NCBI GenBank assembly: GCA_015067435.1
Contig: SVMM01000003.1
Span: 1 to 64,000, forward strand
Length of the DNA: 64,000 nucleotides
Reading direction: 5' to 3'
Source of the DNA: Oscillospiraceae bacterium
GTDB taxonomy: Bacteria; Bacillota; Clostridia; Oscillospirales; Oscillospiraceae
Shown here piece after piece: positions 2,126-19,170 of the stretch. The notes under the pieces were generated by a model, which saw only the letters and a list, made by a program, of their open reading frames with translations, searched no databases and was not told the origin of the DNA. A program made the translations under genes and the position numbers. The stretch's first letter is position 1; each line of letters opens with the position of its first letter.

Positions 2126-2179
2126 GATCCGTTGTCTCCTTCCTTAATATAAACACTAGGTACTATGGTTCAAATGGCC

Positions 2180-4926: not shown

Positions 4927-5002
4927 CGGGGTGTTGCGCAGTTGGTAGCGCGCCTGCTTTGGGAGCAGGAGGCCCAGGGTTCGAATCCCTGCACTCCGAC
5001 CA
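4927..5002 (+). tRNA. tRNA-Pro (anticodon TGG)
   Basis: A 76-base cloverleaf. The acceptor stem CGGGGTG pairs with CACTCCG with one G-T wobble. The anticodon stem CCTGC/GCAGG encloses the loop TTTGGGA, giving anticodon TGG, and the T arm reads GGGTTCGAATCCC. The CCA end is encoded at 5000-5002. The gene stands alone, with its own promoter before it and a terminator after it, and it borders the LuxC/LuxE/transketolase operon. tRNA genes are common integration points, though no integrase sits beside this one. Confidence 0.97.
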
Positions 5003-5149: not shown

Positions 5150-6385
5150 TTATTCGGCCGGTGCATCAAGAATCTGTTTCATAATGTAATCGGGACAGTA
5201 TACGTATCGGGACATGGTTTCAATCATGTCAAATCCATCCCACTTGAATGTCAGATCCATGGTCTTGCCGACAGGAACAATCCTGTCGCAGCCTCGTAAC
5301 CCGCTGTCTGTCACAAAATGCTGCAGCTCATGCGCGTCCATGCCGTAATGCGAAAGAGTCTGGCATGACTTTCCGAGAATTGGAACAAGCTCATTGAGAT
5401 TATCCGCTGTATACTCGAAGAAGTATCCTCCGCCGAGTTTATAATCCATTAAACCCGTGTCGAGACAGCTAACCTCAATGCGCATAACCCTGTTATCCCA
5501 GCTGACCATGCGCGCCTCCTTGCCGGATGCCCCAAGCAGGCAGAGCTGATTCAGCTTGTCTATGGCCTGAATATCCCTGAAATCATAGTCCGTTTCGACA
5601 AGCCGTTCCACCTCGTTCCAGAACAGCGCCTTTGCTTCATCGACCCGCCCGCCGAACCAGATCACGATTCTGGGAGAGGAGCAGGCGTTCTGATCCATAT
5701 AATAGGTATCCGTATAGAACCCCGCCGCGAGTTTTTTGATGTCCGCCCGGATAACCGCGTCCGAGTTCATCAGCGCAACGCTGTGTCGGTCGGCGAATGC
5801 CATTTCAATCGCCCGGGGCGGCAGCTTGGCGGCGCGAACCGTCTCAATGGTGCGGTTTCCACCCCAGATGATGCGCACGTCACAAAGGGAGGACAGATAC
5901 CGGGTAACGGCATCGTCGTGTTCATACCGAAGCAGGATCAGATATTGCTCCATATCCCGGAAACCGTCGCGAAATGTCTTCTTCATGCAGTCCACCACGA
6001 TATCCACCTGCTCGAAGGCTTTACTGGAGAGGCGGACGATATTGATGTTGCCTGCAAGCAGCGAAGAAGTAAAGGAAACCGCGAAATTGATGGGGACGTT
6101 GGAGGGTGCGAAGTGAAGCGCGACACCCCGGCCGACTTTGCCGTCCACATTTGCATAGTAATGCTCCTTGATCTGCCGCAGAGATGCGGCACGAATCCAG
6201 AAGGCATAGCTGCCGATATCCGGGAAAGCCCTCGTTCGAGCGTCTCGCATAAGGTTTCTGGAAAACGCGCTCAAAAAAGCAATCGCCCTCTCGCTCCAGG
6301 TGGGAAGTGCTGGGACGGAGCCTGCTTTTTCCACCATCTCGGAGTTTCCGGTGAGGAAGCTGACGCTATTTAAGCATTTCGGCAT
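5150..6385 (-). CDS. LuxC-like acyl reductase, copy 1
   Basis: Member of the LuxC family (411 residues), which reduces an acyl group held as a thioester to the aldehyde with NADPH. The conserved active-site segment DQNACSSPR is present near the middle, with its catalytic Cys. It is the last gene of the operon and overlaps the LuxE end by 20 bases; the two families work together as acyl-protein synthetase and reductase in bioluminescent bacteria. The ribosome site AGGGGGTG is embedded in the last codons of LuxE. A paralogue lies at 13357-14571. The acyl substrate is not evident from sequence. Family assignment is secure, pathway role inferred. Confidence 0.88.
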   Translation of the reverse strand: MPKCLNSVSFLTGNSEMVEKAGSVPALPTWSERAIAFLSAFSRNLMRDARTRAFPDIGSYAFWIRAASLRQIKEHYYANVDGKVGRGVALHFAPSNVPINFAVSFTSSLLAGNINIVRLSSKAFEQVDIVVDCMKKTFRDGFRDMEQYLILLRYEHDDAVTRYLSSLCDVRIIWGGNRTIETVRAAKLPPRAIEMAFADRHSVALMNSDAVIRADIKKLAAGFYTDTYYMDQNACSSPRIVIWFGGRVDEAKALFWNEVERLVETDYDFRDIQAIDKLNQLCLLGASGKEARMVSWDNRVMRIEVSCLDTGLMDYKLGGGYFFEYTADNLNELVPILGKSCQTLSHYGMDAHELQHFVTDSGLRGCDRIVPVGKTMDLTFKWDGFDMIETMSRYVYCPDYIMKQILDAPAE

Positions 6386-7445
6386 ATGTATCGCTGCACC
6401 CCCTCAACTCCGCGCTCTGGATCCGGCCGAGAATTTGAATATACTTTCCTTTCCTGCCGCAAGGACAGTCATCCTCTCCGAGTATTATGCCCCTGTCCTC
6501 TGTAAGCAAGGAATGGCCGGGATAGGAATGCGGCAGCACAGAGACAGTCTGAAGGATCCCCGCTTCACCGTTCCCGCACAGCGAGAAGTCATCCGGCCTT
6601 CTCACGAATACGTCCGAAAAGATACTGGCATGGAGATGGTGGCATTCGCACTCCGCATAGATGCAGCCGGTCTGCTCCACCATCCCATAGTGATCCAGAA
6701 AATGGATGATTCCAAAGGTTTCTGTCATTCTGCGGCGAAACTCTTCCTGCGTCACCGAGTCGGAGATCAGCTTTTTCCAACCGCCGCCGGTCATCAGCCA
6801 CCCTGCTGAAAGGTCATATCCCCTGCCGTTCTGCTGCACAGCTTCGTACAAATGCTGCCACACCATGAAGGTAAATCCGAAAATCAGAAATTTAGTATGC
6901 CCGTATTTCTCCAGGAAACGCATCAGAGCCGCTTCATCGAGGCTCATATCCTCATTCAGGACGAAGACCATCTCCCGCGCCATCACCTGCAGCCCGATGA
7001 TGGCCGCGCCCCGCGCGGAGAACTGGATGCGATCCTTCATCACGGCCGGTGAATCGATCACAAGGATGGGAAGCCGTTGTTTTCCCAGAAAATCCCCCAA
7101 GATCCGGATCAAGACCTTCTGCTGCATCATGGCGGTTTCCCGGTCTACATAGATGCGGGAAACCGCCTGATTCGTGGTGCCTGAAGAGGTCATGGTCTTG
7201 AACACGCTCTCCCGCGGGATGCTCATAAGCTCAAGCTCCTTGAATAGGCGCACGGGAATAAAAGGAATGTCAGAAGCGTGCATCACCCGGTCGGCATCGT
7301 AATTCAAAGTCTTCAGCATACCCGCATAAGCCGCGCAGTTTTCCCTGTGGTGCTCGGTGAGCGCGACCAGCTCTCCGGTAATAAGCCGGTCCTTCTCCGA
7401 TCTGCTCAGCGAGTAGACGCCATGGTTGTAGAAATCCTCAATCAT
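6366..7445 (-). CDS. LuxE-like acyl-protein synthetase, copy 1
   Basis: LuxE family enzyme of 359 residues. Such proteins activate a carboxylic acid with ATP and carry it on a Cys near the C-terminus before transfer to LuxC. Visible are TSSGTTNQ (phosphate-binding type motif), the segment GFTFMVWQH, HYGMVEQTG, CPCGRKGKY, and a C-terminal RGCSDTYAE whose Cys sits 10 residues from the end, matching the known acyl-carrying Cys position of LuxE. The ATG at 7443-7445 overlaps the end of the transketolase C part by 8 bases. Together with the downstream LuxC it forms an acid-to-aldehyde module. Substrate unknown. Confidence 0.88.
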   Translation of the reverse strand: MIEDFYNHGVYSLSRSEKDRLITGELVALTEHHRENCAAYAGMLKTLNYDADRVMHASDIPFIPVRLFKELELMSIPRESVFKTMTSSGTTNQAVSRIYVDRETAMMQQKVLIRILGDFLGKQRLPILVIDSPAVMKDRIQFSARGAAIIGLQVMAREMVFVLNEDMSLDEAALMRFLEKYGHTKFLIFGFTFMVWQHLYEAVQQNGRGYDLSAGWLMTGGGWKKLISDSVTQEEFRRRMTETFGIIHFLDHYGMVEQTGCIYAECECHHLHASIFSDVFVRRPDDFSLCGNGEAGILQTVSVLPHSYPGHSLLTEDRGIILGEDDCPCGRKGKYIQILGRIQSAELRGCSDTYAEMLK

Positions 7446-8421
7446 GTTCCGATCCTCTGAGTCTTTTCACGATCTTCTCTGCGACCTGCGGAGCGGTGAT
7501 GCCAAAGTGCTCCCAAATGTACCGGGGAGCCCCGGCATCGGAGAAAGCGTCGGGAAAACCGATAAGCATCTGCGGCGGAGTGTTTGCGAGCGTCGCTTTA
7601 TACTCCGCCACGGCGCTGCCCATTCCACCCACTACATTGTGCTCCTCCATGGTAACGATCAGCCTGTGGCCGTTGAAAATCTCCCAAAGTGAATGCTGAT
7701 CTACCGGTTTTATGGTGTGCATATCGGCAACGGTGCAGGAAATCCCCGACTGCTCCAAAAGCTTTGCCGTTTCCATTGCCTCGTGAACCATCAATCCGGT
7801 GCCGATTAAAGCCACGTCGCTTCCCCGCTGCAGGAAGCTGATGCGTCCCGGCTCAAACACATAGCTTTCGTCATATACAATGGGGCAGCCGGGGCCTCCG
7901 CTGAGGCGAATATACATCGGCCCGTCATACCGGGCGGAATACAACGCCATATAGTAGGCCTGCAGGCCGTCGGCGGCGCTCATTACGGTCATGTTCGGCA
8001 GCGCACGCATAAAGGCAATGTCTTCGCTTGCCCAGTGTGCGATGCCGGAGCGCGCCGCCACAACGCCGGCGGCAGTTCCGACCAGTTTCACGTTGAGATT
8101 CAGGTGGGCGACATGCTGGCGCACCTGTTCCAGATCCCTGACGGCGAGGAAAGATGCATAGGTGGTGGCAAACACATGATAGCCCTCCATCGCCAGACCG
8201 GAGGCGATGCCGACCATATCCTGCTCGGCTATGCCGACGTTCAAAAACTGCTCCGGGAACTGTTCGGCAAAGCGGGAAAGGTTGGACAGCTGCGCCAGAT
8301 CGGCGGTAAGAACCATCAGTGACTCGTCTTCTTTTGCAAGCTCCGGCATGGCAACACCGAAAAACGTCGCCCTCTGCCCCATCCGCGACCAGGATCGAAT
8401 CTGGCCTTTTGTTACGCTCAT
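7438..8421 (-). CDS. Transketolase, C-terminal part, copy 1
   Basis: Split transketolase subunit (327 residues) carrying the pyrimidine-binding and C-terminal domains; the N part is encoded just upstream. The catalytic Glu that activates thiamine diphosphate lies in GIAEQDMVG. The ATG at 8419-8421 forms an ATGA overlap with the upstream stop, so longer versions reaching back to 8544 are not used. Transketolases move a two-carbon ketol unit onto an aldehyde, and here the aldehyde could come from LuxC. Alternatively the pair serves ordinary pentose metabolism, but duplication inside this operon argues for a dedicated role (inference). Confidence 0.87.
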   Translation of the reverse strand: MSVTKGQIRSWSRMGQRATFFGVAMPELAKEDESLMVLTADLAQLSNLSRFAEQFPEQFLNVGIAEQDMVGIASGLAMEGYHVFATTYASFLAVRDLEQVRQHVAHLNLNVKLVGTAAGVVAARSGIAHWASEDIAFMRALPNMTVMSAADGLQAYYMALYSARYDGPMYIRLSGGPGCPIVYDESYVFEPGRISFLQRGSDVALIGTGLMVHEAMETAKLLEQSGISCTVADMHTIKPVDQHSLWEIFNGHRLIVTMEEHNVVGGMGSAVAEYKATLANTPPQMLIGFPDAFSDAGAPRYIWEHFGITAPQVAEKIVKRLRGSEHD

Positions 8422-9260
8422 AGAACCCTGCCCTCCATGAGTTCCGTCATTGCCGCGTCGTACTGTTCCCGTGTGATCGCTTTCTGATGCCACTCCGGCC
8501 GATTCTCCGCAAAGGGCAGGCCCTTTCCCTTGACCGTTTCGCATATCAGGACATTCGGCAATCCGGTTTGGATCTCAGCGAAAGCCCGCAGAAGATCGGC
8601 GATGCTATGCCCGTCGCAGACGATGGTGTTCCATCCAAACGCAGCCAGTTTATCCGACAGCCTGCCAAGGCTCATGATGTCCTCCGTGGTGCCGTCGTAG
8701 CACAGGCGGTTGCGGTCAATGACGGCAACCAGGTTGTCCAGCGAATAGTGGCTTGCAGCCATAAAGCTCTCCCAGACGGAACCCTCGTTCAACTCGCCGT
8801 CGCCCATCAGCACATAGACCTTGTAATCCTTGTGGCGTTTTTTCCCGGCAAGGGCCTGACCGGCGCCCACGGAGAGCGCCATACCCAGACTGCCGCCGGA
8901 ATACTCCAGGCCAATTTCAGGATCGCAGGGGTATCCTATCAGGCGGCTTCCGTCTTCGGTGTAGCCGGGCAGCTCCCGTTCAAGCAGAAAGCCCTTCTCA
9001 ACCAACGCCGGAAAATGCGCCAGCGTACAATGGTTCTTACTGACCAGCAGACGATCCCGTTCCGGGTCAAGAGGGTTTTGCGGTTCTACCTTCAAAACCT
9101 CCCCATACAGCACCGCCATGATCTCCATGCAGGAAAAACCGCCGCCGATGTGGGAGCCCTTTGAACCTGCCGATAGTGCCATATCCAGCGCCATCTTCCG
9201 CATACGGATCGCCATTGCACGCAGCCGTGCAATGGTTTCCGGTGAATCGTTCACACGCAT
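8418..9260 (-). CDS. Transketolase, N-terminal part, copy 1
   Basis: Thiamine-diphosphate-binding half of a split transketolase (280 residues). The GDG...N cofactor motif is present: GDGELNEGSVWE, then DNLVAVIDRN. KGSHIGGGFS near the start matches the family. The ATG at 9258-9260 is preceded by GGAGGAAGAAT and overlaps the SDR end by 10 bases; an in-frame extension to 9335 lies inside the SDR gene and is discarded. It works as a heterotetramer with the C part encoded next. Confidence 0.87.
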   Translation of the reverse strand: MRVNDSPETIARLRAMAIRMRKMALDMALSAGSKGSHIGGGFSCMEIMAVLYGEVLKVEPQNPLDPERDRLLVSKNHCTLAHFPALVEKGFLLERELPGYTEDGSRLIGYPCDPEIGLEYSGGSLGMALSVGAGQALAGKKRHKDYKVYVLMGDGELNEGSVWESFMAASHYSLDNLVAVIDRNRLCYDGTTEDIMSLGRLSDKLAAFGWNTIVCDGHSIADLLRAFAEIQTGLPNVLICETVKGKGLPFAENRPEWHQKAITREQYDAAMTELMEGRVL

Positions 9261-10009
9261 ATTCTTCCTCCATCCGCGATGAGCACCTGACCGGTGATGA
9301 ACGACGCCGCGTCCGAAGCCAGAAAAAGCGCGCATTTCGCGATCTCTGAAGGGTCTGCTTTCCTGTGCAGGCTGCTTCGATCCAGTATCTTTTGAATCTC
9401 TTCCTCCGGCTTCACGTTTCCCATATCCGTTTCCGTCAGGCCCGGAGCGATGGCGTTGACGCGGATGCCATATTGCCCGACCTCATGGGATATGGTCTTG
9501 GTGGCATAAATCAGCGCCGCTTTGCTGGAGCCGTAGGCGAGATATCCCGGCGTGGCTTCAATCCCTCCGACGGAGGCCATGTTGACGATACAGCCGCCCT
9601 TTTGACGCATCATGACCCGAAGGATCATCTGCATGATCTGAACCGGCGCAAAACAGTTGACTTGAAAGACATCCTTTACCGTGGAGATCGGCGTCATCGT
9701 CGCAAGTCCGCCGTGGGAGATCCCGGCGTTGTTGATCAGAACATCGATCCGCTTTTTCTCTTTTATGATCGACTGGATCCCTTGCCTGATGTCGTCTTCG
9801 TCGGACAAATCAAAACATACCGGTTTGATCCAAATTTGATTCTTTTCGGAAATCTCAGCGGCGTCCCGGGAAAACTGTTCGTCCGGTTTGCGGATGCACG
9901 CCCATATATTCGCTCCGCTTTCGGCAAACAGCTCAAGCATGACCCGGCCGATACCGCGTCCCGCCCCTGTGATAATGATATTTTTTCCCTGCATGATCCG
10001 ATCCGGCAT
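9251..10009 (-). CDS. Short-chain dehydrogenase/reductase, copy 1
   Basis: NAD(P)-dependent SDR of the FabG-like classical type (252 residues from the chosen start). It has the Rossmann motif TGAGRGIG, NNAG, and the catalytic pair in YGSSK with the upstream Ser in NMASVGG. The chosen ATG at 10007-10009 has GAGGTGA 7 bases upstream; an alternative ATG at 10042 would give an ATGA overlap with the preceding gene but lacks a good ribosome site. In the operon it is placed to reduce the ketone formed by the transketolase, or a 3-oxoacyl group on the ACP. It has a paralogue at 11830-12567. Confidence 0.85.
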   Translation of the reverse strand: MPDRIMQGKNIIITGAGRGIGRVMLELFAESGANIWACIRKPDEQFSRDAAEISEKNQIWIKPVCFDLSDEDDIRQGIQSIIKEKKRIDVLINNAGISHGGLATMTPISTVKDVFQVNCFAPVQIMQMILRVMMRQKGGCIVNMASVGGIEATPGYLAYGSSKAALIYATKTISHEVGQYGIRVNAIAPGLTETDMGNVKPEEEIQKILDRSSLHRKADPSEIAKCALFLASDAASFITGQVLIADGGRICV

Positions 10010-10038
10010 CTTATTCACCTCAGCCGCACGATTGTCGA

Positions 10039-11004
10039 TCATGCGCACATTTCTTTTCTAACCGCTGCGGCGATGGACTCCGCCGTTAATCCGCAGCGTT
10101 CGTTCATAAACTCATGCTTCCCTGCCTTCATAAAGGCATCCGGCATACCGAGCCTGACCAGCCTCGGCATGTTGCCCGCTTCTGCCGCAGCCTCGGCGAC
10201 CGCGGTTCCCAATCCGCCGCAGATGCTGTGTTCCTCCACGGTAACAATCAGCTTTTTCCCCTTTGCCATTGAAATCAACAGCTCATCGTCAATCGGACGG
10301 ATCGTGTGCATATTGATCACAGCTGCGGAAATGCCCTCCAGATCAAGCGCCTTTGCCGCTTTCAGGCTTTCGGATACGGGAACTCCGTTCGCAACGACCA
10401 GAACATCCGTGCCTTCCTTCATGACGATCCCTTTCCCGATTGCAAACGGATAGTCTTCGGTATAGACAATGGGCACATTCCTTCCTCCGGTCAGGCGGAT
10501 GTACATCGGTTCCCTGTAGTCGGCCGCCGCTTCGATCGTTTTGACGATCTCGGTGCAATCCGCCGGCGTCACCACTGTAATATTGTGCATCAATCGCATG
10601 ACGGCCGCGTCTTCCATCCCATAGTGGGAGCATCCGGAGAGCCCCTGCTCAAACCCCGCGCTCAACCCTATGAGTTTTACGGGCAAACGCATGTAACCCA
10701 GATTCATACGGATCTGATCCAGGCATCTTTCGGTGACAAACGGTGCAAAGGAGGTAGCAAAGGCGGTTTCCCCCTCCATCGCAATTCCGGCGGCGATTCC
10801 GATCATGCTTTGTTCGGCAATGCCGGCATTGATCAGCCGGTCGGGATACGTTTCTCTGAATTTCTTTAATCCGGAGGAAATCGCCAAATCGGCGGTAACG
10901 ACATAGAAATCCTTCTCTTCGGCAAGCGCCTGCAGCGCTTGGCCAAGTGTCCCGCGCGCTCCAAGCAACGACCATGTTCTCGCATTTCGTCTGTTGATTT
11001 CCAT
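10039..11004 (-). CDS. Transketolase, C-terminal part, copy 2
   Basis: Second split-transketolase C subunit (321 residues), clearly diverged from copy 1. The catalytic Glu is in GIAEQSMIG, and the region MYIRLTGGRNVPIVY matches the copy-1 segment MYIRLSGGPGCPIVY. It begins 1 base after the N part stop and overlaps the possible long start of the SDR. Divergence between the copies suggests different donor or acceptor specificities rather than a recent duplication. Confidence 0.87.
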   Translation of the reverse strand: MEINRRNARTWSLLGARGTLGQALQALAEEKDFYVVTADLAISSGLKKFRETYPDRLINAGIAEQSMIGIAAGIAMEGETAFATSFAPFVTERCLDQIRMNLGYMRLPVKLIGLSAGFEQGLSGCSHYGMEDAAVMRLMHNITVVTPADCTEIVKTIEAAADYREPMYIRLTGGRNVPIVYTEDYPFAIGKGIVMKEGTDVLVVANGVPVSESLKAAKALDLEGISAAVINMHTIRPIDDELLISMAKGKKLIVTVEEHSICGGLGTAVAEAAAEAGNMPRLVRLGMPDAFMKAGKHEFMNERCGLTAESIAAAVRKEMCA

Positions 11005-11005
11005 C

Positions 11006-11833
11006 TCATCTTCCCCTTAATTCTTCCATAGCCTGCTGGAACTCTTTTTCTGTCATCTGCCTGTGATGCCAATCATTGTTGTTTTCCATGAAGGAGATTC
11101 CTTTTCCCTTCACAGTGTTCGCGATGATGGCTTTGGGCTTTCCGTTGTTCCAGTCAATGCCCGCGAAGACGGCGTCAATCTGTGCGAGATCGTTGCCGTC
11201 CAGCTTCCATGTTTCCCAGCCGAAACTTTTCCATTTGCCTTCCAAATCGCCCAATGACATAACGCTGTCATTTGTCCCGTCACTCTGCAGCCCATTCCGA
11301 TCAACGATTGCCATCAAATGGTCAAGGTGGTAGTGGCTGGCACACATGGCCGCTTCCCACACGGAGCCTTCATCGCATTCTCCGTCGCCCAACAGAACGA
11401 AATTCCGGTAGCTTCTGTCCTTTTTGACGGCGATGATCTGATTGCCGACAGCCAGAGATAACCCCTGTCCCAGGCTTCCGTTGGAGGATTCGATACCCAG
11501 CTCCAGATTCCTCACCGGATGAGAACTCAGCTCCCCTTCATTCTGCTGAAAGGTACTGAGCTTATCCTCGTCGAAAAAGCCCGCCATTTGAAGCACCGTA
11601 TAGTAGCTTAAAACGCCGTGTCCCTTGCTCAAAAAGAATCTGTCTCTCTCCGCCCATTCCCTGCACGTCAGATCGTAGTTCATTTCCTTGAGATAAAGGA
11701 AAATCAGCAGTTCCACAGATGACAGCGCGCCGCCGAAATGGACGGCATAATTCGATGCAAATCCGGTTTTTACCATCTTGATTCTCGCGGTTTCGGCCGC
11801 ATCCTTCAATTCCTGAATACTCTTCATTTTCAT
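11006..11833 (-). CDS. Transketolase, N-terminal part, copy 2
   Basis: Second thiamine-diphosphate half of a split transketolase (275 residues). The cofactor motif is GDGECDEGSVWE with LMAIVDRNG. The ATG at 11831-11833 makes an ATGA overlap with the SDR copy 2 stop, which fixes the start. It pairs with the C part 1 base downstream. Confidence 0.87.
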   Translation of the reverse strand: MKMKSIQELKDAAETARIKMVKTGFASNYAVHFGGALSSVELLIFLYLKEMNYDLTCREWAERDRFFLSKGHGVLSYYTVLQMAGFFDEDKLSTFQQNEGELSSHPVRNLELGIESSNGSLGQGLSLAVGNQIIAVKKDRSYRNFVLLGDGECDEGSVWEAAMCASHYHLDHLMAIVDRNGLQSDGTNDSVMSLGDLEGKWKSFGWETWKLDGNDLAQIDAVFAGIDWNNGKPKAIIANTVKGKGISFMENNNDWHHRQMTEKEFQQAMEELRGR

Positions 11834-12567
11834 CTGGATCCTCCGTCCACCCGTATCACTTGTCCGTTCACAAACGAAGCCTGTTCAGACGCCAGAAAGA
11901 AAGCCACATTCGCGACCTCTTCCGGCTGTCCCAGTCTGTTCATCGCACAACGATCCAACAGGTTGTCGCCGACTTTTTCCTTTACCTTTTCGACCATATC
12001 GGTCTCGGTCGGGCCGGGTGCGATCACATTTACCCGGATCCCCTGCTCGCCCATCTCCGACGCCAGGATCCTTGAAAGAGAGATCAAAGCTGCTTTTGAA
12101 CTGCCGTATGCACAATTGGTCGGATTCGCGTCCAAGCCGGCGATCGATGCGATATTGACAATACTGCCCTTTTTCCGTCGCAGCATCAGTTTTGCAACCA
12201 TTTGCGCAAGATAAACCGTCCCAAAGAAATTGGTTTCAAACACTTCTCTCAACTTCTTCATTGAGGTCATGAAGAACAGATCCGTGTTGACAACGCCGGC
12301 AACATTGATCAGCGCGTCAATATCTGTTTTATCGGCTCTGATCTGCTTTACCGCATTCGTTATTTCCTCTTCGCTCGTCAAATCAAAGAATACAGGCTTG
12401 ATCTCACAGCCGCATCGGGCGGAAAGCTCACGCATCTCCCTCAAAAACTGCTCGTCTTCTTTTCGGGCGCAAGCCCAGATTTTCTGATATCCGCCCTCGG
12501 CAAATCTTTTCACCGTCTGGCTGCCGATACCACGGTTCGCCCCTGTAATGATTACGCTGTTTGCCAT
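11830..12567 (-). CDS. Short-chain dehydrogenase/reductase, copy 2
   Basis: FabG-like SDR (245 residues from the chosen start). TGANRGIG, NVAG and YGSSK are all present, with Ser in NIASIAG. The ATG at 12565-12567 follows AGAGGGGGACAAGG; longer starts to 12600 use GTG without a ribosome site. In both halves of the operon an SDR gene directly precedes a transketolase N-C pair, so SDR-TKN-TKC is a repeated three-gene unit. Confidence 0.85.
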   Translation of the reverse strand: MANSVIITGANRGIGSQTVKRFAEGGYQKIWACARKEDEQFLREMRELSARCGCEIKPVFFDLTSEEEITNAVKQIRADKTDIDALINVAGVVNTDLFFMTSMKKLREVFETNFFGTVYLAQMVAKLMLRRKKGSIVNIASIAGLDANPTNCAYGSSKAALISLSRILASEMGEQGIRVNVIAPGPTETDMVEKVKEKVGDNLLDRCAMNRLGQPEEVANVAFFLASEQASFVNGQVIRVDGGSR

Positions 12568-12602
12568 AATCCTTGTCCCCCTCTTTGACATATCATTCAC
12601 TG

Positions 12603-13334
12603 TTACCCGAGAAATCTCGTCAAAAGATAGTTCATGTTCTCGATCTGATAGCCCAGCAGTTGATTGGCCTTTATCACGCTGGGGTTATTGGACGACACAT
12701 GCGCCACAATCCGTTTTGCCTTGTTTGCTTTGGCCACCTCGATCATATAGTATCCCAGATAGACGCCAAAACCGGGAAACCTGCTCGTGCTCATCAGCCC
12801 GGACAGCAAGCCCGTGACCGTGCCTTTGTCATCCGTTTTCATCACGGAAAAACCTGCCGCTTCATCTCCATAGCTGATGATATAGGGACGGGCGCCGCGA
12901 TTGGCAATCTCCTCGCGAATCCAGTTTCCGTATCGCCGCGCCGCAACGGCGGGGCCGAATCTCGGATTGAGCGAAATCTTGTCGGTCTGGAAAACAGATC
13001 CCCCGTCCACGGCATCATAAATCTGTTTGATTTCATTTTCGTCCGCCGGATGAAAGGTAAACTCATGCAAATGTCTTTGATATGCCTCCGGAAGCTCGCA
13101 GACCGGCTTCATGGATTGAGCGATGGCAACCTCCGCAAACCGGAACCCGCCCGCAAGGAGGCCGTTCACAATATCGATCCTGTTCATCGGGATAACCGCT
13201 TCCTGATATATGTAATCCTGATTTTTAACGGTTTCCGTCACTGCCGCAGGATCATCGTTCCCGTCAAAGTGAAATACGGCGCTGCTTGCAACGCCGAGAT
13301 TTTTCTGCTCCCAGGGTGTTTCCTGAATCCACAT
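12603..13334 (-). CDS. GNAT-type acetyltransferase
   Basis: Protein of 243 residues with a C-terminal GNAT-like fold: FGVYLGYYMIEVAKANKAKR resembles the acyl-CoA pyrophosphate-binding helix, followed by VSSNNPSVIKANQLLGY, a typical GNAT end. The N-terminal half has an FR/WecD-like character without a clear assignment. The ATG at 13332-13334 has AGAAGGAG 6 bases upstream. It is the only unduplicated gene between LuxC copy 2 and the SDR. It would acylate an amine or, less commonly, a hydroxyl of the product (inference). Substrate unknown. Confidence 0.7.
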   Translation of the reverse strand: MWIQETPWEQKNLGVASSAVFHFDGNDDPAAVTETVKNQDYIYQEAVIPMNRIDIVNGLLAGGFRFAEVAIAQSMKPVCELPEAYQRHLHEFTFHPADENEIKQIYDAVDGGSVFQTDKISLNPRFGPAVAARRYGNWIREEIANRGARPYIISYGDEAAGFSVMKTDDKGTVTGLLSGLMSTSRFPGFGVYLGYYMIEVAKANKAKRIVAHVSSNNPSVIKANQLLGYQIENMNYLLTRFLG

Positions 13335-13356
13335 ATGCACTCCTTCTGTCCGGCAC

Positions 13357-14571
13357 TCAGATAACCGCAATCGTCCGGGTCAATACCGCTGGCAGGGCGT
13401 ATCCGTCCCAGATGAGGTCGAAGTCCATCGTCCTGCCCAGCGGCACGATCCGGTCAATGCCCATGATCCCGCTTTCCAGCAACGGCGCGAACATGTTCCG
13501 ATCTCCAATATACGCAATGGTCTGGCAGCGTTTGTTGTCGCACAGGCTCCTGAGTTCCGTAATGTCGCTGCAATCGCACTCGAAGAAATAGCCGCTGTTG
13601 TCCCGGTATTCCATCAGTTTTTCGGTATCCGGCGGCACGGAGACGCGGAAGATCAGATTGTCCTCTCCATGCTCCGCGTGTGCCCCCGGCAGATTGACTG
13701 CCGCCAGGCACCCGCTGACAAGCTTGTTGACGCCCTGGATCGGCTGAAAATTGTACTTTTTCTTCACCAGCCGGTGGGCTTCCGCCCAGAACAGTGTCTT
13801 CGCCTGCGGGATGCTGCTTCCCACCCATGCGATTACTCTCGGGCTGGTGCAGGCGTTCTGGTCCGTCAGGAAAGTATCGTTATAGAAATCCTCCGCCACC
13901 CTGGTCTTGTCCTCCATGGCAAGGTAGGCATCAGAATCCACCACAGCCAGAGAATACCGGTCTGCAAAAGTAATCTCGGAAGACCGGGGCGGAAGCGGAG
14001 ATCTCCTCAGCTCGGCAATCGTCTGATCCCCGCCCCAGACTACCCGCACATCTGCCGCTGCCGAAAACCAGTCGTTCACGGCGCGGTCCCGTTGGTAGCG
14101 CATCAGCAGGAGATACGGCCGCAGCCCGGGACATTCGTCCAGGGCATGATTCAATGCGTCCGCGATCATCTCCACCTGCGGGAACGGTTTGGAGGGCACC
14201 CGCACCGCATTGGCGTTGCCGGTCATGAGGCCCGCAGCCAGCGAATACGCAAAGTTTACGGGGACATTGGACGGCGCAATGTGGAACAAAACGCCTCTCC
14301 CCACTTGAACGCTCCCACCTTGTGTTGCGAACCGCGTTTGCAGCTTCATGACCGATGCCTTGCGGATCCAGAAGGCAAAGGTGACCACATCGGGGAATGC
14401 CTTTGCCGCTGAATTACCCATCAGCTGTTGTGAAGCAATGTTCAAAAAGCGGATCACTTCGGCATCAAAGGGCATTCGCACCTGAACACGGGCAAGTCCC
14501 TCCGCAATCTGCGCATCTCCAACCAAAAATGATATTCCGGCGGGCAAATCAGTCCTTGAATCGTTCCGCAT
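13357..14571 (-). CDS. LuxC-like acyl reductase, copy 2
   Basis: LuxC family acyl reductase (404 residues). The active-site segment DQNACTSPR carries the catalytic Cys; GRGVLFHIAPSNVPVNFAYS matches copy 1 (GRGVALHFAPSNVPINFAVS). The ATG at 14569-14571 lies 23 bases inside the LuxE end, as in copy 1, and the preceding GGGGGTGCAGCGATAC is nearly identical in both. With LuxE and the thioesterase just upstream it resembles a luxD-luxE-luxC acid reductase module, but there is no luxAB luciferase here. Confidence 0.88.
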   Translation of the reverse strand: MRNDSRTDLPAGISFLVGDAQIAEGLARVQVRMPFDAEVIRFLNIASQQLMGNSAAKAFPDVVTFAFWIRKASVMKLQTRFATQGGSVQVGRGVLFHIAPSNVPVNFAYSLAAGLMTGNANAVRVPSKPFPQVEMIADALNHALDECPGLRPYLLLMRYQRDRAVNDWFSAAADVRVVWGGDQTIAELRRSPLPPRSSEITFADRYSLAVVDSDAYLAMEDKTRVAEDFYNDTFLTDQNACTSPRVIAWVGSSIPQAKTLFWAEAHRLVKKKYNFQPIQGVNKLVSGCLAAVNLPGAHAEHGEDNLIFRVSVPPDTEKLMEYRDNSGYFFECDCSDITELRSLCDNKRCQTIAYIGDRNMFAPLLESGIMGIDRIVPLGRTMDFDLIWDGYALPAVLTRTIAVI

Positions 14572-15643
14572 AAGTATCGCTGCACCCCCTGATCTCAGCA
14601 TCTTTCAGCCTGCCAAGGACTTTGAAATATTTTCCCTTTCTTCCACAGGGACAGTCGTCAACGCCCAGAACCACGCCCTCGTCCTCTGTCAGCAGGTTGT
14701 GTCCCGGATAAGACTCCGGTATGGAGGACATCACCTGCAGGATTCCCGGTTCACCGATGGCGCATTCGGAGAAGTCCAGCGGTCGTCTGGCGATCACGTC
14801 CGAGAAAATGCTGGCGTGGAGGTGACCAAATTCACATTCCATATAAATACAGCCGGTCTGCTCTGCCATTCCGTAATAATCGTGGATCTGCTCAAGCCCG
14901 CACACTTCCCGCAGGCTGTTTTTGAACACGTCGGACGTAACAGCGTCCGCGGCGAGCTTTTTCCAGCCTCCGCCGTGAATCAGCACGCCGTCGGACAGGT
15001 CGAAAACGATTCCCTGTTCCCGCAGGCGCAGAAGCTCCCGATAGAAGTGCTGCCAGACCATAAAGGTGAACCCGAACAGCAGAATGCGCTGACCATGGAA
15101 GCAAGACAGGAAATCCCGCAGTTCATCCACGTTCAGGCGCATTTTGTCGTCCAGCGCAAACATACGCTTTGCGCCAAATATAGAAAAGCCCAGAATGCCG
15201 GCCCCCCGCGCAGAAAACATATTCCTGTCCTTTACGACGCCCGGGCAGTCGATGACAATCATAGGCATACGCCCCGTTCCGATGAAATCCGAAACGATCC
15301 GTACCATTGCCCGCTGCTGATTGGCAGAGGTCACGCGATCCAGGAAGATTCTGCTGACGGACTGGCCGGAGGTGCCGGAGGATGTCACAGTTTTGACCAC
15401 CGCGTCGTCGGGCACGGATTTCAGCGAGAGCTCTTTAAACAAACGAACCGGCAGGAACGGCAGCATCCGATAATCCTGCATCGGCTCAGCAGGGACGTCA
15501 AAGCACTCCAGAATTTTGGAATATTCAGGGCAGTTCATTCGATGAAACTCTGTCAATGTATTTAGACGCCGTGTCAATATTTTTTCTTTCTCCGGCTGTG
15601 CCATGGAATAGGTCGGGAGTAAAAACAGTTCCTCAAACGTCAT
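14549..15643 (-). CDS. LuxE-like acyl-protein synthetase, copy 2
   Basis: LuxE family enzyme (364 residues). TSSGTSGQS, GFTFMVWQHF, YYGMAEQTG, CPCGRKGKY and the terminal RGCSDTYAE with the presumptive acyl-carrying Cys are present. The ATG at 15641-15643 forms ATGA with the thioesterase stop. It activates a free acid with ATP and passes it to LuxC. The adjacent thioesterase could supply the free acid from acyl-ACP. Confidence 0.88.
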   Translation of the reverse strand: MTFEELFLLPTYSMAQPEKEKILTRRLNTLTEFHRMNCPEYSKILECFDVPAEPMQDYRMLPFLPVRLFKELSLKSVPDDAVVKTVTSSGTSGQSVSRIFLDRVTSANQQRAMVRIVSDFIGTGRMPMIVIDCPGVVKDRNMFSARGAGILGFSIFGAKRMFALDDKMRLNVDELRDFLSCFHGQRILLFGFTFMVWQHFYRELLRLREQGIVFDLSDGVLIHGGGWKKLAADAVTSDVFKNSLREVCGLEQIHDYYGMAEQTGCIYMECEFGHLHASIFSDVIARRPLDFSECAIGEPGILQVMSSIPESYPGHNLLTEDEGVVLGVDDCPCGRKGKYFKVLGRLKDAEIRGCSDTYAERFKD

Positions 15644-16344
15644 TTGTCTTCCCACATCCTGTTCTGAATAATTGCAGCCATTTCGCGGAAATGCTCCCGA
15701 ATAAAAAAATGCGTCCCATCAAAACGGCAAAGTTCAAAACGGCCGACAAAATATCGACGCCACTGCGCCATGTATTCCGAAGGCGTGTCCTCTTCAGAAT
15801 AGAAGATGGTTGCAGGGATGTCTGTCTCAAAGTGTATGTTCTCAAACCAGTATTTGCCAACCATGGCGTAATCCGCCCGATACAGAGGAAGATAAACCCG
15901 CCAAAAGCTCCGGTTGCTGATGAGGCAGTCGGGAACGGCGCCGAAGCTGATCGTCCGCTGCTTTACCCTCTCGTCCGGTTCCGTCTGCGTAAAGCCCCGC
16001 AGCTCCTCTCTGACGCGAGGCTCGTGAGCAGCAAGAAAAATGTGGAACGGCCTCGGAAAATCGGAGGCGGTAATGCGCCGCAGCACCTCCAGAACGGCTA
16101 TTGCTCCCATGCTATAGCCAAGCAGTGCATATTTACTCCCGGTATATGCCGTTTTCAGGCAGGAGAACATATCCTCTGCCAGAGCGTCGAAATCCCTGTA
16201 AAAAGGCTCCCGATACCGCGTTCCATGCCCCGCGTACTCCAGCTTCTCAACCTGCAGTTCCGGCAAAAACGTTTCGATGTCGTCGAAAAGCGTTCTCCTG
16301 CCTCCCGCGCAGGTAAAGCAAAAAAGCTGTCCGTCACAGGCCAT
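15640..16344 (-). CDS. Type II thioesterase (GrsT-like alpha/beta hydrolase)
   Basis: Alpha/beta hydrolase of 234 residues like the stand-alone thioesterases of polyketide and peptide clusters. FCFTCAGG, the nucleophile elbow GYSMGA, an acidic residue in YSEEDTPSEY and the His of GTHFFI form a plausible triad. The ATG at 16342-16344 overlaps the ligase end by 11 bases. Probable role: release of an acyl group from the operon's ACP, or proofreading. Confidence 0.83.
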   Translation of the reverse strand: MACDGQLFCFTCAGGRRTLFDDIETFLPELQVEKLEYAGHGTRYREPFYRDFDALAEDMFSCLKTAYTGSKYALLGYSMGAIAVLEVLRRITASDFPRPFHIFLAAHEPRVREELRGFTQTEPDERVKQRTISFGAVPDCLISNRSFWRVYLPLYRADYAMVGKYWFENIHFETDIPATIFYSEEDTPSEYMAQWRRYFVGRFELCRFDGTHFFIREHFREMAAIIQNRMWEDK

Positions 16345-17752
16345 TGTACTGTTCCAGCGCGCTGTACAGCGTCTTCCCGGAATCGTTCTTCGGGATCTCG
16401 TCAATATGAATAACACGGAAGGCAGACGGATTGAGCCGGGTCACCGCTGCCGCGTATTCCTGTATCGGCTTCATCAGCGTTTCCTCTGTGGTAAAAATCG
16501 ACAGGCGGTCATCGATGCCGGTACAGGCTGCGTCGACGTTGAACCTGCCGCGGATGAGCCGCTCCATCTCATCCAGGTTGACGCGGTTGCCGAAAATCTT
16601 GAGGAAGCGCTTTTTTCTTCCGCTGATATAGAAGAAACCGTCCTCATCAAAGTAAGCCATGTCGCCGGTTTTCAATACGCCGTGGCATTCATCACCGCGG
16701 TTCAGATCCGCTCCGCATTCCGCATACCCGAGCGTGACGTTCTTTCCCTCGTAGATCAGCTCGCCAACCACGTTCGGATCGGTGATTTCCCGCTCGTCCC
16801 CATCAATCAGCCGGAACCTCCCGCCGGGAATTGCAATTCCTACGGAGCCTTTTTTCACCAGCGCCATCTCTGCGGGCAGGTATCCCATTCTGGCAGTGGC
16901 CTCACATGCTCCATACATGACGAAAAACCGCTTGTCGTTCTCGACGGCATACTTTGCAAACTTCTCTTGAATATCCGGAAGTATCTTCCCGCCTGCCTGT
17001 GTCATGGTGCGAAGCGACGGCAGCTCCATACGATAAAACCGCATACGGTCCAGCATTTCATAAGTATAGGGCACGCCTCCGAAGGATGTGGCGCCGGCTT
17101 CTCGGAAGAAATCCCAAAAGCCTCTCTGCGTAAAGTCCTTATCCGTCACCAGAATCGTAGCGCCTGCAAGAAGATGGCTGTTGATAATCGAAAGGCCGTA
17201 TGTGTAGTTCATCGGCAGGGTAGTTATCGGCCGCTCCTCCGCGTCCAACTCCAGATATTTGACGATGGATTGGGCGTTGTCGATGATATTGACATAGGAT
17301 TGGCGCACCAGCTTGGGAGAACCCGTCGAGCCTGACGTGGTCAGGAGCAAACCCAGCGCGTCGTTCAGGGGATATGCTTCTTGCCGCGCAGTCTTCATCA
17401 GCGCGTACCCGTGAGCGGAGTATACCGCCTCCATATCCGCGAATCTCCCCGACTGATCCTCCGGAATCCACAGATAGGACGGGGCGTAAGTGTCGATCAA
17501 GTTTCTCAGAAGAGAGTCCTCCAGCCGACTGCTCAGAAGCAGCGGTACGATGCCATGATTCACAAACGCTGCATAACCCATGATCGAGCCGATCTCATTT
17601 CGGCAAAGCGAAAAAACGAGGCATCTCCCTCCCGTTGCTGCAGCAAGGCGGTCTGTCTCGTATTGCATTTCTTCATAGGTCAAGGTGTTGCCGCGATCAT
17701 CACGCAGGGCAATTCTTGGTTCTTGGGCGCTGAAATCCCAGATCCTATCCAT
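16334..17752 (-). CDS. AMP-forming acyl ligase (acyl-ACP/CoA synthetase type)
   Basis: Adenylate-forming enzyme of 472 residues. Core motifs are LLTTSGSTGSPK (phosphate loop), YGACEATARMG, TGDMAYFDEDGFFYISGR, and the terminal catalytic Lys in PKNDSGKTLY. The ATG at 17750-17752 overlaps the ACP stop (TGATG). Next to an ACP gene it most likely loads an acid onto that carrier. The acid is not identifiable from sequence. Confidence 0.88.
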   Translation of the reverse strand: MDRIWDFSAQEPRIALRDDRGNTLTYEEMQYETDRLAAATGGRCLVFSLCRNEIGSIMGYAAFVNHGIVPLLLSSRLEDSLLRNLIDTYAPSYLWIPEDQSGRFADMEAVYSAHGYALMKTARQEAYPLNDALGLLLTTSGSTGSPKLVRQSYVNIIDNAQSIVKYLELDAEERPITTLPMNYTYGLSIINSHLLAGATILVTDKDFTQRGFWDFFREAGATSFGGVPYTYEMLDRMRFYRMELPSLRTMTQAGGKILPDIQEKFAKYAVENDKRFFVMYGACEATARMGYLPAEMALVKKGSVGIAIPGGRFRLIDGDEREITDPNVVGELIYEGKNVTLGYAECGADLNRGDECHGVLKTGDMAYFDEDGFFYISGRKKRFLKIFGNRVNLDEMERLIRGRFNVDAACTGIDDRLSIFTTEETLMKPIQEYAAAVTRLNPSAFRVIHIDEIPKNDSGKTLYSALEQYNGL

Positions 17753-17994
17753 CAAAACGACACTCCGTAATTATCCTTGGAAAGAATTTCTTTGCCCTTT
17801 TCATAGGAGCTGAAATCAATAATGTCTTCTGTGTCCATGATAATGTCGAATGTATCCTCCATGGCTGCAATCAGAGTCATGTGTCCCACGGAGTCCCATT
17901 CGGGAATATCTTGATATTGCAGTCCCTCCAGTTGATCCGCTCCGATTTCAAACGTAGTAATAAACGCCTCATTGTACTTTTCAAGGTTGCTCAT
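17752..17994 (-). CDS. Acyl carrier protein
   Basis: Acidic 80-residue carrier protein. The 4'-phosphopantetheine attachment site is Ser35 in WDSVGHM, followed by a hydrophobic helix and an acidic region. It is translationally coupled to the acyl ligase (TGATG). It is diverged from housekeeping FabC-type ACPs and would hold the operon's acyl intermediate. Confidence 0.88.
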   Translation of the reverse strand: MSNLEKYNEAFITTFEIGADQLEGLQYQDIPEWDSVGHMTLIAAMEDTFDIIMDTEDIIDFSSYEKGKEILSKDNYGVSF

Positions 17995-18042
17995 GGTTTA
18001 TCCTTTCTCCTTTTGTGTATGATCTCGGTCAAAACAGATGAG

Positions 18043-19014
18043 TCATTCTGCCGGTTCGGTATTCATGGTCTCTCGCACAACGTATTGCGGTGAATTGTTC
18101 AAACTGATATAAATCCTCCCTAAGTATTCCCCAATCATACCAAGTATCAGCATGATGACCCCTGATGAAAACAACTGGACGGCCATGATGGAGCTGTAAC
18201 CCATAGGGATTCCAGAGTTGCAAAGCCTTCGAATAATAATAATCAATCCATAGACGAATCCAAGGAAGGCAAAGAGCACACCCAGGATCAACGCAATGCG
18301 CAGCGGTTTGACCGAAAAGGACGTCAGTCCGTTCGCAAACAGCTCGACGGACTTTATTAAGGTAAAGCCCGAAGCGTTCCCGTCCTCACGTTCCCGCTCC
18401 TCCATCGGAACCATCTTGATGTTGTGCGTTGCGCGCAGGACAAGTCCCGCGACATAGGGATAGGGATTGCGGTATTTCAGAATCTCATCGCATACAAAAC
18501 GCTTGATAACAGCGAAATTCTCCAGCACGACTCCCTTTGGAGGCTCAATGAGCATATTGACCATCGAATTGTTTACCTGGCTGCCCATGCGCTTCCACAG
18601 CGACTCCTTTTTCCGAGGATACGCCGCCGTTGCACAGTCATACCCCTCATTTGCAACCGGGTCTACCAGCTCCCACAGTCTGTCCATCGGGCACTGGCAG
18701 TCATCGTCGAGATTGACGATGTATTCGCCTCTGACGTATGAAAAACCCGCCATCATGGCGCTGTGCTTTCCGAAGTTCTTTGCCAGATTGATCACCTTAA
18801 AGCAAGGATCACCGGCGGCCAGTTTTCTCAGGACAGTCAATACGCCGTCCGGAGAGCAGTCGTTTACAGTGATGACTTCATAGGTGTACTCCGGTTTCTG
18901 TGCCACCGTTTCCACGATCTCCCGATAAACCTTTTCTATGGTCTTTTCACTGCGATAACATGGGATCACAAAGCTGAGCAGATTTTTGATTTCCTCACGT
19001 TTTCTGTCGCTCAT
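18043..19014 (-). CDS. Family 2 glycosyltransferase with C-terminal membrane anchor
   Basis: GT2 enzyme of 323 residues similar to polyprenyl-phosphate glycosyltransferases (GtrB/ArnC/DPM1 type). SFVIPCYRSEKTI and VNDCSPDG form the nucleotide-sugar site and NLDDDCQCP is the metal-binding acidic motif. Two membrane helices lie near residues 240-262 and 275-300. The start MSDRK (ATG 19012-19014) follows AAGGA by 8 bases; a longer start to 19095 has no ribosome site. First gene of the operon. It suggests that the product is a glycolipid or is attached through a lipid carrier (inference). Confidence 0.85.
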   Translation of the reverse strand: MSDRKREEIKNLLSFVIPCYRSEKTIEKVYREIVETVAQKPEYTYEVITVNDCSPDGVLTVLRKLAAGDPCFKVINLAKNFGKHSAMMAGFSYVRGEYIVNLDDDCQCPMDRLWELVDPVANEGYDCATAAYPRKKESLWKRMGSQVNNSMVNMLIEPPKGVVLENFAVIKRFVCDEILKYRNPYPYVAGLVLRATHNIKMVPMEEREREDGNASGFTLIKSVELFANGLTSFSVKPLRIALILGVLFAFLGFVYGLIIIIRRLCNSGIPMGYSSIMAVQLFSSGVIMLILGMIGEYLGRIYISLNNSPQYVVRETMNTEPAE

Positions 19015-19140
19015 GAGCATCGTCCTTATTCTGTCCTGTAAGCCAAATTGGCTTCCCATATCTTTCAAATGACCACTGGGCAATTTCCTTCTCATCAGTC
19101 AGAAATCATGATATGCCCGAGTTATCTACAACAAGTAAGT

Positions 19141-19170
19141 ATTATATCATATAGCACATTCCGAATTCAA
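19141..19170 (-). promoter_or_regulatory. Promoter of the LuxC/LuxE-transketolase operon
   Basis: Minus strand TTGAAT, 18-base spacer, TATAAT. It is the only strong promoter seen for the 15 genes and leaves a leader of about 120 bases before the glycosyltransferase start. Confidence 0.72.

Follow-up and report, generated by a model that had tools for sequence, protein, structure and literature searches.

A duplicated LuxE–LuxC–transketolase operon in an Oscillospiraceae bacterium and its proposed role in acylating a surface amino sugar

What would be made by an operon that pairs LuxE and LuxC with a split transketolase, and does so twice? Such an operon lies in the first 64,000 nucleotides of contig SVMM01000003.1 (assembly GCA_015067435.1) of an Oscillospiraceae bacterium, the stretch that we analysed and refer to here as the window. 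The operon comprises 15 open reading frames, all on the minus strand between positions 5150 and 19095. Besides two sets of LuxE, LuxC, a short-chain dehydrogenase/reductase (SDR) and the N- and C-terminal halves of a transketolase (TKN and TKC), these encode an acyl carrier protein (ACP), an AMP-forming ligase, a thioesterase, a GNAT acyltransferase and a GT2 glycosyltransferase. We think it probable, on balance, that the operon makes an unusual acyl group, which becomes fixed to the amino group of a 4-amino-4,6-dideoxy sugar on a surface polymer. At the core of this proposal is a chain of reactions put forward in an original prediction made from the letters of the window, in which an acid is converted to an aldehyde, extended by a C2 ketol unit and reduced. 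This aldehyde–ketol logic is well supported by residue changes at the transketolase acceptor site, by a dedicated transketolase clade and by linkage of transketolase to LuxE–LuxC in both directions of search.

Layout and origin of the operon

The operon had been placed at 5150–19014. The end at 5150 holds, but the first gene (GT2) extends slightly past 19014, to an ATG at 19095. As predicted, all 15 genes run in one direction. Adjacent genes overlap at 10 of the 14 junctions, and the remaining four gaps measure 1–48 bases. The features, in gene order, are as follows.

19141..19170, minus strand: weak promoter-like match (10/12 consensus bases, extended TG; region not enriched over shuffles)
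18043..19095, minus strand: GT2 glycosyltransferase, PgfS/ArnC-like (PF00535, E 1.7e-31; NCBIfam PgfS 1.8e-47 and ArnC 8.5e-41, both under cut-off)
17752..17994, minus strand: acyl carrier protein, 80 residues (14-member profile matching solved ACPs)
16334..17755, minus strand: AMP-forming ligase, putative acyl-ACP ligase (PF00501, 6.8e-36; closest solved structure by sequence oxalate-CoA ligase, 3.7e-24)
15640..16416, minus strand: type II thioesterase, editing proposed (PF00975, 1.2e-23)
14549..15655, minus strand: LuxE, set A (PF04443, 2.5e-48)
13357..14601, minus strand: LuxC acyl reductase, set A (PF05893, 7.2e-25)
12603..13334, minus strand: GNAT acyltransferase, WecD-like (NF008212, E 7.6e-6, 25.9 bits; fold match 2fs5)
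11830..12591, minus strand: SDR oxidoreductase, set A (PF13561, 5.3e-60)
11006..11833, minus strand: transketolase N half, set A (PF00456, 3.1e-35; closest solved structure by sequence split transketolase 6yak, 1.3e-59)
10039..11004, minus strand: transketolase C half, set A (PF02779/PF02780; 6yaj, 4.6e-67)
9251..10042, minus strand: SDR oxidoreductase, set B (PF13561, 1.1e-56)
8418..9260, minus strand: transketolase N half, set B (PF00456, 6.1e-32)
7438..8421, minus strand: transketolase C half, set B (PF02779/PF02780)
6366..7445, minus strand: LuxE, set B (PF04443, 2.3e-46)
5150..6385, minus strand: LuxC acyl reductase, set B (PF05893, 1.5e-24)

Pfam models were matched above cut-off by GT2, the AMP ligase, the thioesterase and both copies of LuxE, LuxC, SDR, TKN and TKC, in agreement with the two five-gene sets originally described. 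The ACP and the GNAT matched no Pfam model at E 0.01 and were identified instead by profile and fold searches. Sets A and B share 52% identity in LuxE, 39% in LuxC, 47% in SDR, 40% in TKN and 42% in TKC; judged from these values, the duplicate pairs are old.

A single promoter had also been predicted. One sigma-70-like match, with 10 of 12 consensus bases and an extended TG, does lie upstream (19170–19141), but the region holds 8 such matches compared to 10.6 ± 3.3 in shuffled sequences, so the claim is unproven. The G+C content of the operon is 53.5%, compared to 60.9% in the rest of the window. A tRNA-Pro gene (4927–5002) lies on the opposite strand, about 150 bases from the operon end, and no LuxC match is present in G080, a genome from the same genus whose completeness is rated at 100%. 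Based on these three features, the operon was probably acquired. One scan of viral contigs found no relatives of LuxC-A.

Transketolase is linked to LuxE and LuxC

A scan of public genomes with a LuxE alignment yielded at least 517 confirmed relatives, of which the best 80 loci, ranked by similarity to the query and hence not a random sample, were retained. Counted by cluster label, the ligase is present in 79 of these loci, LuxC in 73, ACP in 67, SDR in 57, TKC in 40, TKN in 39, the thioesterase in 26, and GNAT and the window-type GT2 in 15 each. Raw BLAST counts run up to 2 higher (ACP 69, ligase 80), and many loci end at contig ends. Transketolase is thus present in about half of the loci. 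Where at least 6 kb was available on either side of LuxE (57 loci), both transketolase halves were found in 32 and neither in 24. TKN is preceded by an SDR in 28 of 40 cases, and TKC is followed by ACP, ligase or LuxE in 28 of 43. In what we call module B (TKN-TKC-LuxE-LuxC, with an SDR before it where the contig reaches), transketolase lies beside LuxE with no ACP between; this arrangement is seen in the window and in L057, L060, L105, L165, L184 and L185.

We also searched in the other direction, with TKC-A as query against two overlapping samples, one of 394 genomes from the order and one of 391 from the class, at a threshold of E 1e-78. Eight genomes other than its own had matches at this level or better (G213, G258, G462, G496, G570, G645, G667 and G796), and LuxE was present in all eight of the fetched neighbourhoods. 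Three of these genomes (G258, G462 and G645) were already among the LuxE loci, and weaker matches, from 1e-60 to 1e-78, were covered only via 25 reference loci. Transketolase and LuxE–LuxC are linked from both search directions.

A quick tree was built from 75 TKC sequences, 47 linked and 28 unlinked, the latter including the three other complete split transketolases of the window genome (6yaj was left out; support is given as SH-aLRT). Forty-six of the 47 linked sequences form one branch (SH-aLRT 99), apart from the 28 unlinked ones; the exception, from L085, sits on a long branch outside the linked clade. Five set-B TKCs, those of the window and of L057, L060, L105 and L139, group together on one branch (SH-aLRT 100).

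The acceptor site of linked transketolases is altered

Transketolase residues are numbered here by E. coli TktA, from alignment. Both window copies keep H26, H66, N185, H261, D381, E411 and H473. The linked transketolases in general keep the thiamine diphosphate (ThDP)-binding and catalytic residues (H473 in 40/41, the others checked in 41/41 or 43/43), except that D155 is Asn in 11/43 and H100 is variable. In TKC-A, where E411 and H473 are kept, H461 and D469 are both Ser; in TKC-B, H461 is replaced by Ala, D469 by Ser and S385 by Leu. The same two positions, H461 (A/G/T/S) and D469 (L/S/F/A/Q/G), have been replaced in every one of the 41 linked TKCs (that of L014 and 40 from the 80 loci), just as in the two window copies; at S385, 19 of the 41 have F, Y or L. 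By comparison, among 25 unlinked split transketolases from the order, whose neighbourhoods were checked to 1.5 kb (except for L148 and L152), 23 retain both H461 and D469. Of the three other split transketolases in the window genome, two keep both residues and one has D and N there. The claim that all catalytic motifs are intact therefore stands for LuxE, LuxC and the ThDP chemistry of transketolase, but not for its recognition of the acceptor.

The variant TktA S385Y/D469T/R520Q takes 3-formylbenzoate with hydroxypyruvate, and TktA D469T is termed propanal-accepting, in the available text of PMC10787763. The H461 and D469 changes affect a site that engineers alter, and they suggest as acceptors of the linked transketolases non-phosphorylated aldehydes without an alpha-hydroxyl, the kind that LuxE/LuxC would deliver. 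Acceptor-site residues, as read from alignment, do not tell the chain length of the aldehyde.

Retention of the ThDP-binding and catalytic residues is also what would be seen in ordinary pentose-phosphate transketolases that sit in the operon by chance. However, the genome has its three other complete split transketolases, and the linked copies make up a separate clade lacking H461 and D469. We rejected a pentose-phosphate role on these grounds and regard it as extremely improbable.

Transketolase-like pairs of the NapB/NapD type, associated with glycolyl-ACP, are known from antibiotic pathways. By analogy, the acceptor of transketolase could be ACP or a keto sugar rather than an aldehyde from LuxC; transfer of a glycolyl or ketol unit would then give glycolyl-ACP or a branched sugar, and LuxE/LuxC would make a separate substituent. 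ACP directly follows TKC in 16 of 43 cases, and dTDP-sugar genes lie near some loci, in line with this idea. Against it, Pfam reported no lipoyl domain in the operon proteins, module B keeps transketolase beside LuxE with no ACP between in seven loci including the window, and loss of D469 fits an aldehyde acceptor. We consider such a transfer unlikely.

LuxE, LuxC, ligase and ACP as a module of glycan loci

In the set-A LuxE, the Cys of the C-terminal motif RGCSDTY is invariant in five relatives and aligns with LuxE of the bioluminescence LuxC–LuxE structure 7xc6; in the set-A LuxC, the Cys of DQNAC aligns with LuxC of the same structure. We take these cysteines to be the reacting residues. 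The 14-member ACP profile matches solved ACPs (2lml, E 2.1e-5), and W33-D34-S35 is invariant.

The 80 LuxE loci come mostly from Clostridia, many of them animal-gut, and also from Treponema, Selenomonas, Centipeda, Synergistales, Muribaculaceae, Gastranaerophilales and Proteobacteria. Other common neighbours are a DegT cluster with WecE among its members (34 loci) and genes we named NeuD-like (25), FabZ-like (22), NeuB-like (20), LDH-like (14), ALS-like (14), PglC-like (13) and KASIII-like (11), several of these assignments having been verified by further searches. Neighbours are mostly glycan or acyl genes and, on this comparison of loci, the set of LuxE, LuxC, AMP ligase and ACP is a widespread module in glycan loci. 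Many relatives sit in glycosylation or polysaccharide loci; the only glycan-type genes inside the window operon are GT2 and GNAT, and the partner genes are on another contig (C30, described below). Within the window's own family, L014 reads as a polysaccharide locus, with a PglC-like gene, several glycosyltransferase genes and one SDR-SDR-TKN-TKC set. Another locus, L015 (G074:C7), has LuxE-LuxC-ligase-ACP and no transketolase within the 19.5 kb taken. By our own reading, the L015 module lies near FabZ-like and 4-hydroxybutyryl-CoA dehydratase-like genes and transporters, with no obvious glycan genes nearby.

HMGL-like (L068), LDH-like and ALS-like genes occur in some LuxE loci, which suggests that the starter is a small hydroxy- or keto-acid. 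The HMGL-like protein (PF00682; 541 residues; L068:3418-5043) is conserved near an ALS-like gene and ACP in set-B loci (L184 and L185) and may build the starter acid. A separate observation concerns the ALS-like ThDP enzyme, found in 1 of 39 LuxE loci with transketolase and 12 of 40 without (Fisher p 0.0015, kinship ignored). This pattern reads as if either enzyme could be the carboligase; the ALS-like gene also travels with NeuB-like genes.

Partner genes for the sugar

An AlphaFold2 model of the GNAT (pLDDT 92, from 15 family members) gave as its top Foldseek match in the PDB the TDP-fucosamine acetyltransferase WecD (2fs5; E 1.3e-15, TM 0.74/0.80, 246 alignment columns), and the fold is WecD-like over its full length. 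The protein does not pass the curated WecD-type model NF008212 (25.9 bits versus a cut-off of 219). We propose, based on the structural model, that it is a WecD-like N-acyltransferase of a dTDP-4-amino-4,6-dideoxyhexose that falls outside the curated WecD model. GT2 also fails to pass the curated models (PgfS, 162 of 500 bits; ArnC, 140 of 529 bits); in sequence it resembles enzymes that make undecaprenyl-phosphate sugars. It is the only match of its type in its own genome at E 1e-10.

WecD acylates the product of WecE. WecE is not encoded in the window but on contig C30 of the same genome, where YfhO, WecE, two SMR-like genes, RmlA and RmlB lie head to tail (locus L129). Curated cut-offs are exceeded by RmlA (456 of 361 bits), RmlB (492 of 365) and WecE (622 of 375), and the genes of an amino-sugar nucleotide pathway are thus present in the genome. 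The YfhO protein passes its Pfam cut-off and is the only YfhO found in the genome. The two EamA-like SMR genes beside WecE score 18 and 29.3 bits versus an EamA cut-off of 28.2; this pair may act as a flippase.

Loci elsewhere bring the two sets of genes together. The C30 WecE shares 75% identity with the WecE of L033, which precedes GNAT-SDR-TKN-TKC-ACP-ligase-LuxE-LuxC, and the C30 YfhO is 51% identical to the protein preceding GT2-GNAT-SDR-TKN-TKC in L034. A homologue of the window GT2 adjoins WecE of this type in 4 of 5 other genomes of the family. L184 and L185 hold WecE, the SMR pair, module B, GT2, GNAT and ACP in a single locus, and module A occurs together with GT2 and GNAT in L034, L041, L042 and L183.

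These genes bear on the product named in the original prediction, a sphingoid-like lipid head. In that scheme, a fatty acid would be converted to an aldehyde, extended by a C2 ketol unit, reduced, N- or O-acylated and glycosylated, to give a sphingoid-like or polyhydroxylated lipid. LuxE and LuxC of bioluminescence do act on fatty acids, and non-polar residues at S385 and D469 in many linked transketolases would also suit a longer aldehyde. However, none of the curated models for long-chain LuxC–LuxE fatty acid reductases is passed by the window proteins, all four LuxE/LuxC scoring far under the NCBIfam cut-offs (60.1 and 68.7 of 550 bits; 30.5 and 44.7 of 750 bits), and the solved structure closest to the ligase is oxalate-CoA ligase. 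Amino-sugar, undecaprenyl-phosphate-sugar and polysaccharide genes are the neighbours of related loci. We rejected the sphingoid head on the basis of these glycan neighbours, the WecD-like GNAT and the likeness of GT2 to undecaprenyl-phosphate-sugar synthases, and a lipid product of any such kind seems very improbable.

A proposed pathway

The genes, their homology, linkage and clade, the residue changes and the partner genes were observed directly; every reaction and substrate in the following scheme is inferred. The starter would be a carboxylic acid of small or medium size, perhaps a di-acid like malate or succinate that reacts at one end; LuxE would activate it and LuxC would reduce it to the aldehyde. 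The dedicated split transketolase would add a C2 ketol unit, for which hydroxypyruvate or a ketose phosphate might be the donor, and the SDR would reduce the new ketone to give a polyhydroxylated chain. The AMP ligase would then load the remaining carboxylate onto ACP, with editing by the thioesterase, and the WecD-like GNAT would pass the acyl group to the dTDP-4-amino-4,6-dideoxyhexose made by RmlA, RmlB and WecE of C30. Finally, GT2 would move the acylated sugar to undecaprenyl phosphate, the SMR-like pair of C30 would flip it, and the C30 YfhO would join it to an outer polymer. A second unit derived from an aldehyde is the probable product of set B. At loci that lack transketolase, the SDR would reduce the aldehyde itself, in which case the module would give an alcohol, an outcome in keeping with acids such as the 2,4-dihydroxybutanoate found in a known O-antigen.

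Several observations weigh against this scheme or against parts of it, beginning with the non-polar acceptor-site residues noted above. Neither transketolase half is seen, in the stretch covered, in 40 of the 80 LuxE loci, so transketolase is optional there. Independent variation of transketolase and LuxC, raised originally as a sign that the two are not coupled, is thus found in one direction; in the other, a transketolase of the linked type (E 1e-78) never occurred without LuxE in the eight other genomes. Loss of H461 and D469 is not exclusive to LuxE loci, since both residues are missing from 2 of the 25 unlinked transketolases, L148 and L152, with no LuxE found near either (the L148 contig is only 7 kb). 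R520 was dropped as a diagnostic residue, being Gly in 23 of the 25 unlinked split transketolases too. The Pfam LuxC model is loose, matching 9 of 14 well-known genomes in a control (7 over cut-off), and the identity of LuxC hence rests on the 7xc6 alignment and on its constancy as a partner of LuxE. Some loci also carry ALS-like, HMGL-like or KASIII-like genes, so there may be more than one route to the acid. Across 150 sampled genomes of the family, only the window genome combines LuxC with a WecE of this type (E 1e-100); of the others, five have such a WecE but no LuxC match, and three have a close LuxC but not this WecE. Support for a link between the operon and C30 therefore comes from their complementarity and from loci outside this sample. 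With WecE and LuxC in different genomes of the family and both combined at other loci, the sugar branch and the acyl branch look, from gene content, like combinable modules. Finally, a ketol-extended chain ends in CH2OH, and a second round on the same end would need an oxidation that no operon gene explains. For this reason, sets A and B more likely serve two units, or two ends of a chain, than successive rounds.

In broader terms, the operon may represent a malonyl-free, modular way of lengthening acyl groups, in which LuxE/LuxC supply an aldehyde, an acceptor-altered transketolase adds a C2 ketol unit and a reduction follows. This would be an exchangeable cassette, used in gut Clostridia and other phyla for the acyl groups of surface amino sugars, and the window would hold two cassettes in one operon. 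We regard this generalization as evenly balanced between right and wrong. If true, it would add a carbon-carbon bond-forming step to the acyl tailoring of glycans and would reveal a natural transketolase family changed at the acceptor site, which would be useful in biocatalysis. It would also mean that such acyl groups can be isobaric with hexose or deoxyhexose, and hence be misread in glycoproteomics, and it would make sense of a set of genes that recurs in flagellin islands under the label 'fatty acid synthesis'. The residue masses that we computed for N-acyl-Fuc4N are 307.127 for a chain from malate semialdehyde after C2 extension and reduction, 291.132 for one from succinate semialdehyde, 247.106 where transketolase takes no part and 187.084 for simple acetylation; hexose and deoxyhexose are isobaric with the acyl groups of the first and second.

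Comparison with known systems

The original prediction knew of no described pathway with this gene set. Part of the set has in fact been described. According to the available text of PMC7874193, group II flagellin glycosylation islands of Aeromonas carry ACP, a 3-oxoacyl-ACP reductase, an AMP synthetase, LuxE and LuxC, followed by GT2, and the genes are read there as serving fatty-acid or liposugar synthesis. Flagellin glycosylation islands of many Enterobacteriaceae strains similarly include LuxE, LuxC, ACP, CaiC and FabG (PMC4875605, available text). The window operon contains all five parts of this kit (ACP, SDR, ligase, LuxE and LuxC); the likeness in both cases is one of description, not of sequence, and the Aeromonas glycan is linked via a Pse derivative. 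The word transketolase has no occurrence in the available text of either paper. Among the papers listed by our searches, none pointed by title or start of abstract to transketolase with LuxE/LuxC in a glycan locus, most subscription journals being outside the coverage. As far as these texts go, the basic kit is known from flagellin islands, where it is described without its chemistry, and from O-antigen loci, and the transketolase step is not. In a related observation, the flagellin of Aeromonas AH-3 bears a 102 Da moiety of no assigned identity and a 376.14 Da Pse derivative (PMC7874193, available text). We computed masses of 102.032 for dihydroxybutanoyl and 376.148 for Pse with one acetyl replaced by dihydroxybutanoyl, which equal the AH-3 values, although mass alone is no proof. 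The window genome likely has a flagellin glycosylation island of its own, at C16:93501-132500 (L114, L131). There, a second flagellin gene (the first is just upstream, at C16:91547) is followed, partly by our own reading, by two large glycosyltransferase-like frames, nucleotidyltransferase, ALS-like, NeuB-like, NeuC, FkbM-like and radical SAM-like frames and DegT.

In Vibrio cholerae, RfbN is LuxE/LuxC-like, and we know of no transketolase in the O1 tetronate pathway. In the available text of PMC3441752, the perosamine of the O1 antigen carries tetronate as its acyl group; in that of PMC12208996, 2,4-dihydroxybutanoate is reported to be activated by RfbL, with CoA or the carrier RfbK as the acceptor. 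RfbK/RfbL (WbeL) thus resemble the window proteins in providing a ligase and a carrier for a small hydroxy acid on a 4-amino-4,6-dideoxy sugar; the sugar there is perosamine, and the comparison is by description, not sequence. The O-antigen system also bears on whether the product is an acyl group at all. In some loci an LDH-like gene follows LuxC, hinting at a monocarboxylic starter such as lactate, which would leave no carboxylate for the ligase. The product might in that case be a polyol or ketose derivative bound to the glycan by an ester, ether or phosphate, with GNAT and ligase/ACP making a simpler substituent. This appears decidedly unlikely, given that the ligase (79/80) and ACP (67/80) are constant partners of LuxE and that the related O-antigen acid is ligase-activated and acylates the amino group of perosamine (PMC12208996 and PMC3441752, available text).

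Closest among solved structures to both transketolase halves, by sequence, is the split-chain enzyme of Carboxydothermus hydrogenoformans (6yak/6yaj). The operon copies differ from unlinked split transketolases in forming a separate clade with a changed acceptor site. Compared with bioluminescence LuxC–LuxE (7xc6), of which one cysteine each aligns, the window proteins are distant and far below the long-chain family cut-offs, and no luciferase gene is among the 15. The CsbB/PgfS-YfhO and ArnC/ArnEF families form undecaprenyl-phosphate-sugar glycosylation systems. The window genome likewise has a GT2, an SMR-like pair and a single YfhO; here, in contrast, the genes are split over two contigs, and the sugar is probably an N-acylated 4-amino-4,6-dideoxyhexose.

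The frames that come directly after the operon, at window positions 215-4744, look by our own reading of the open reading frames methyl-accepting chemotaxis-like and GGDEF/EAL-like.

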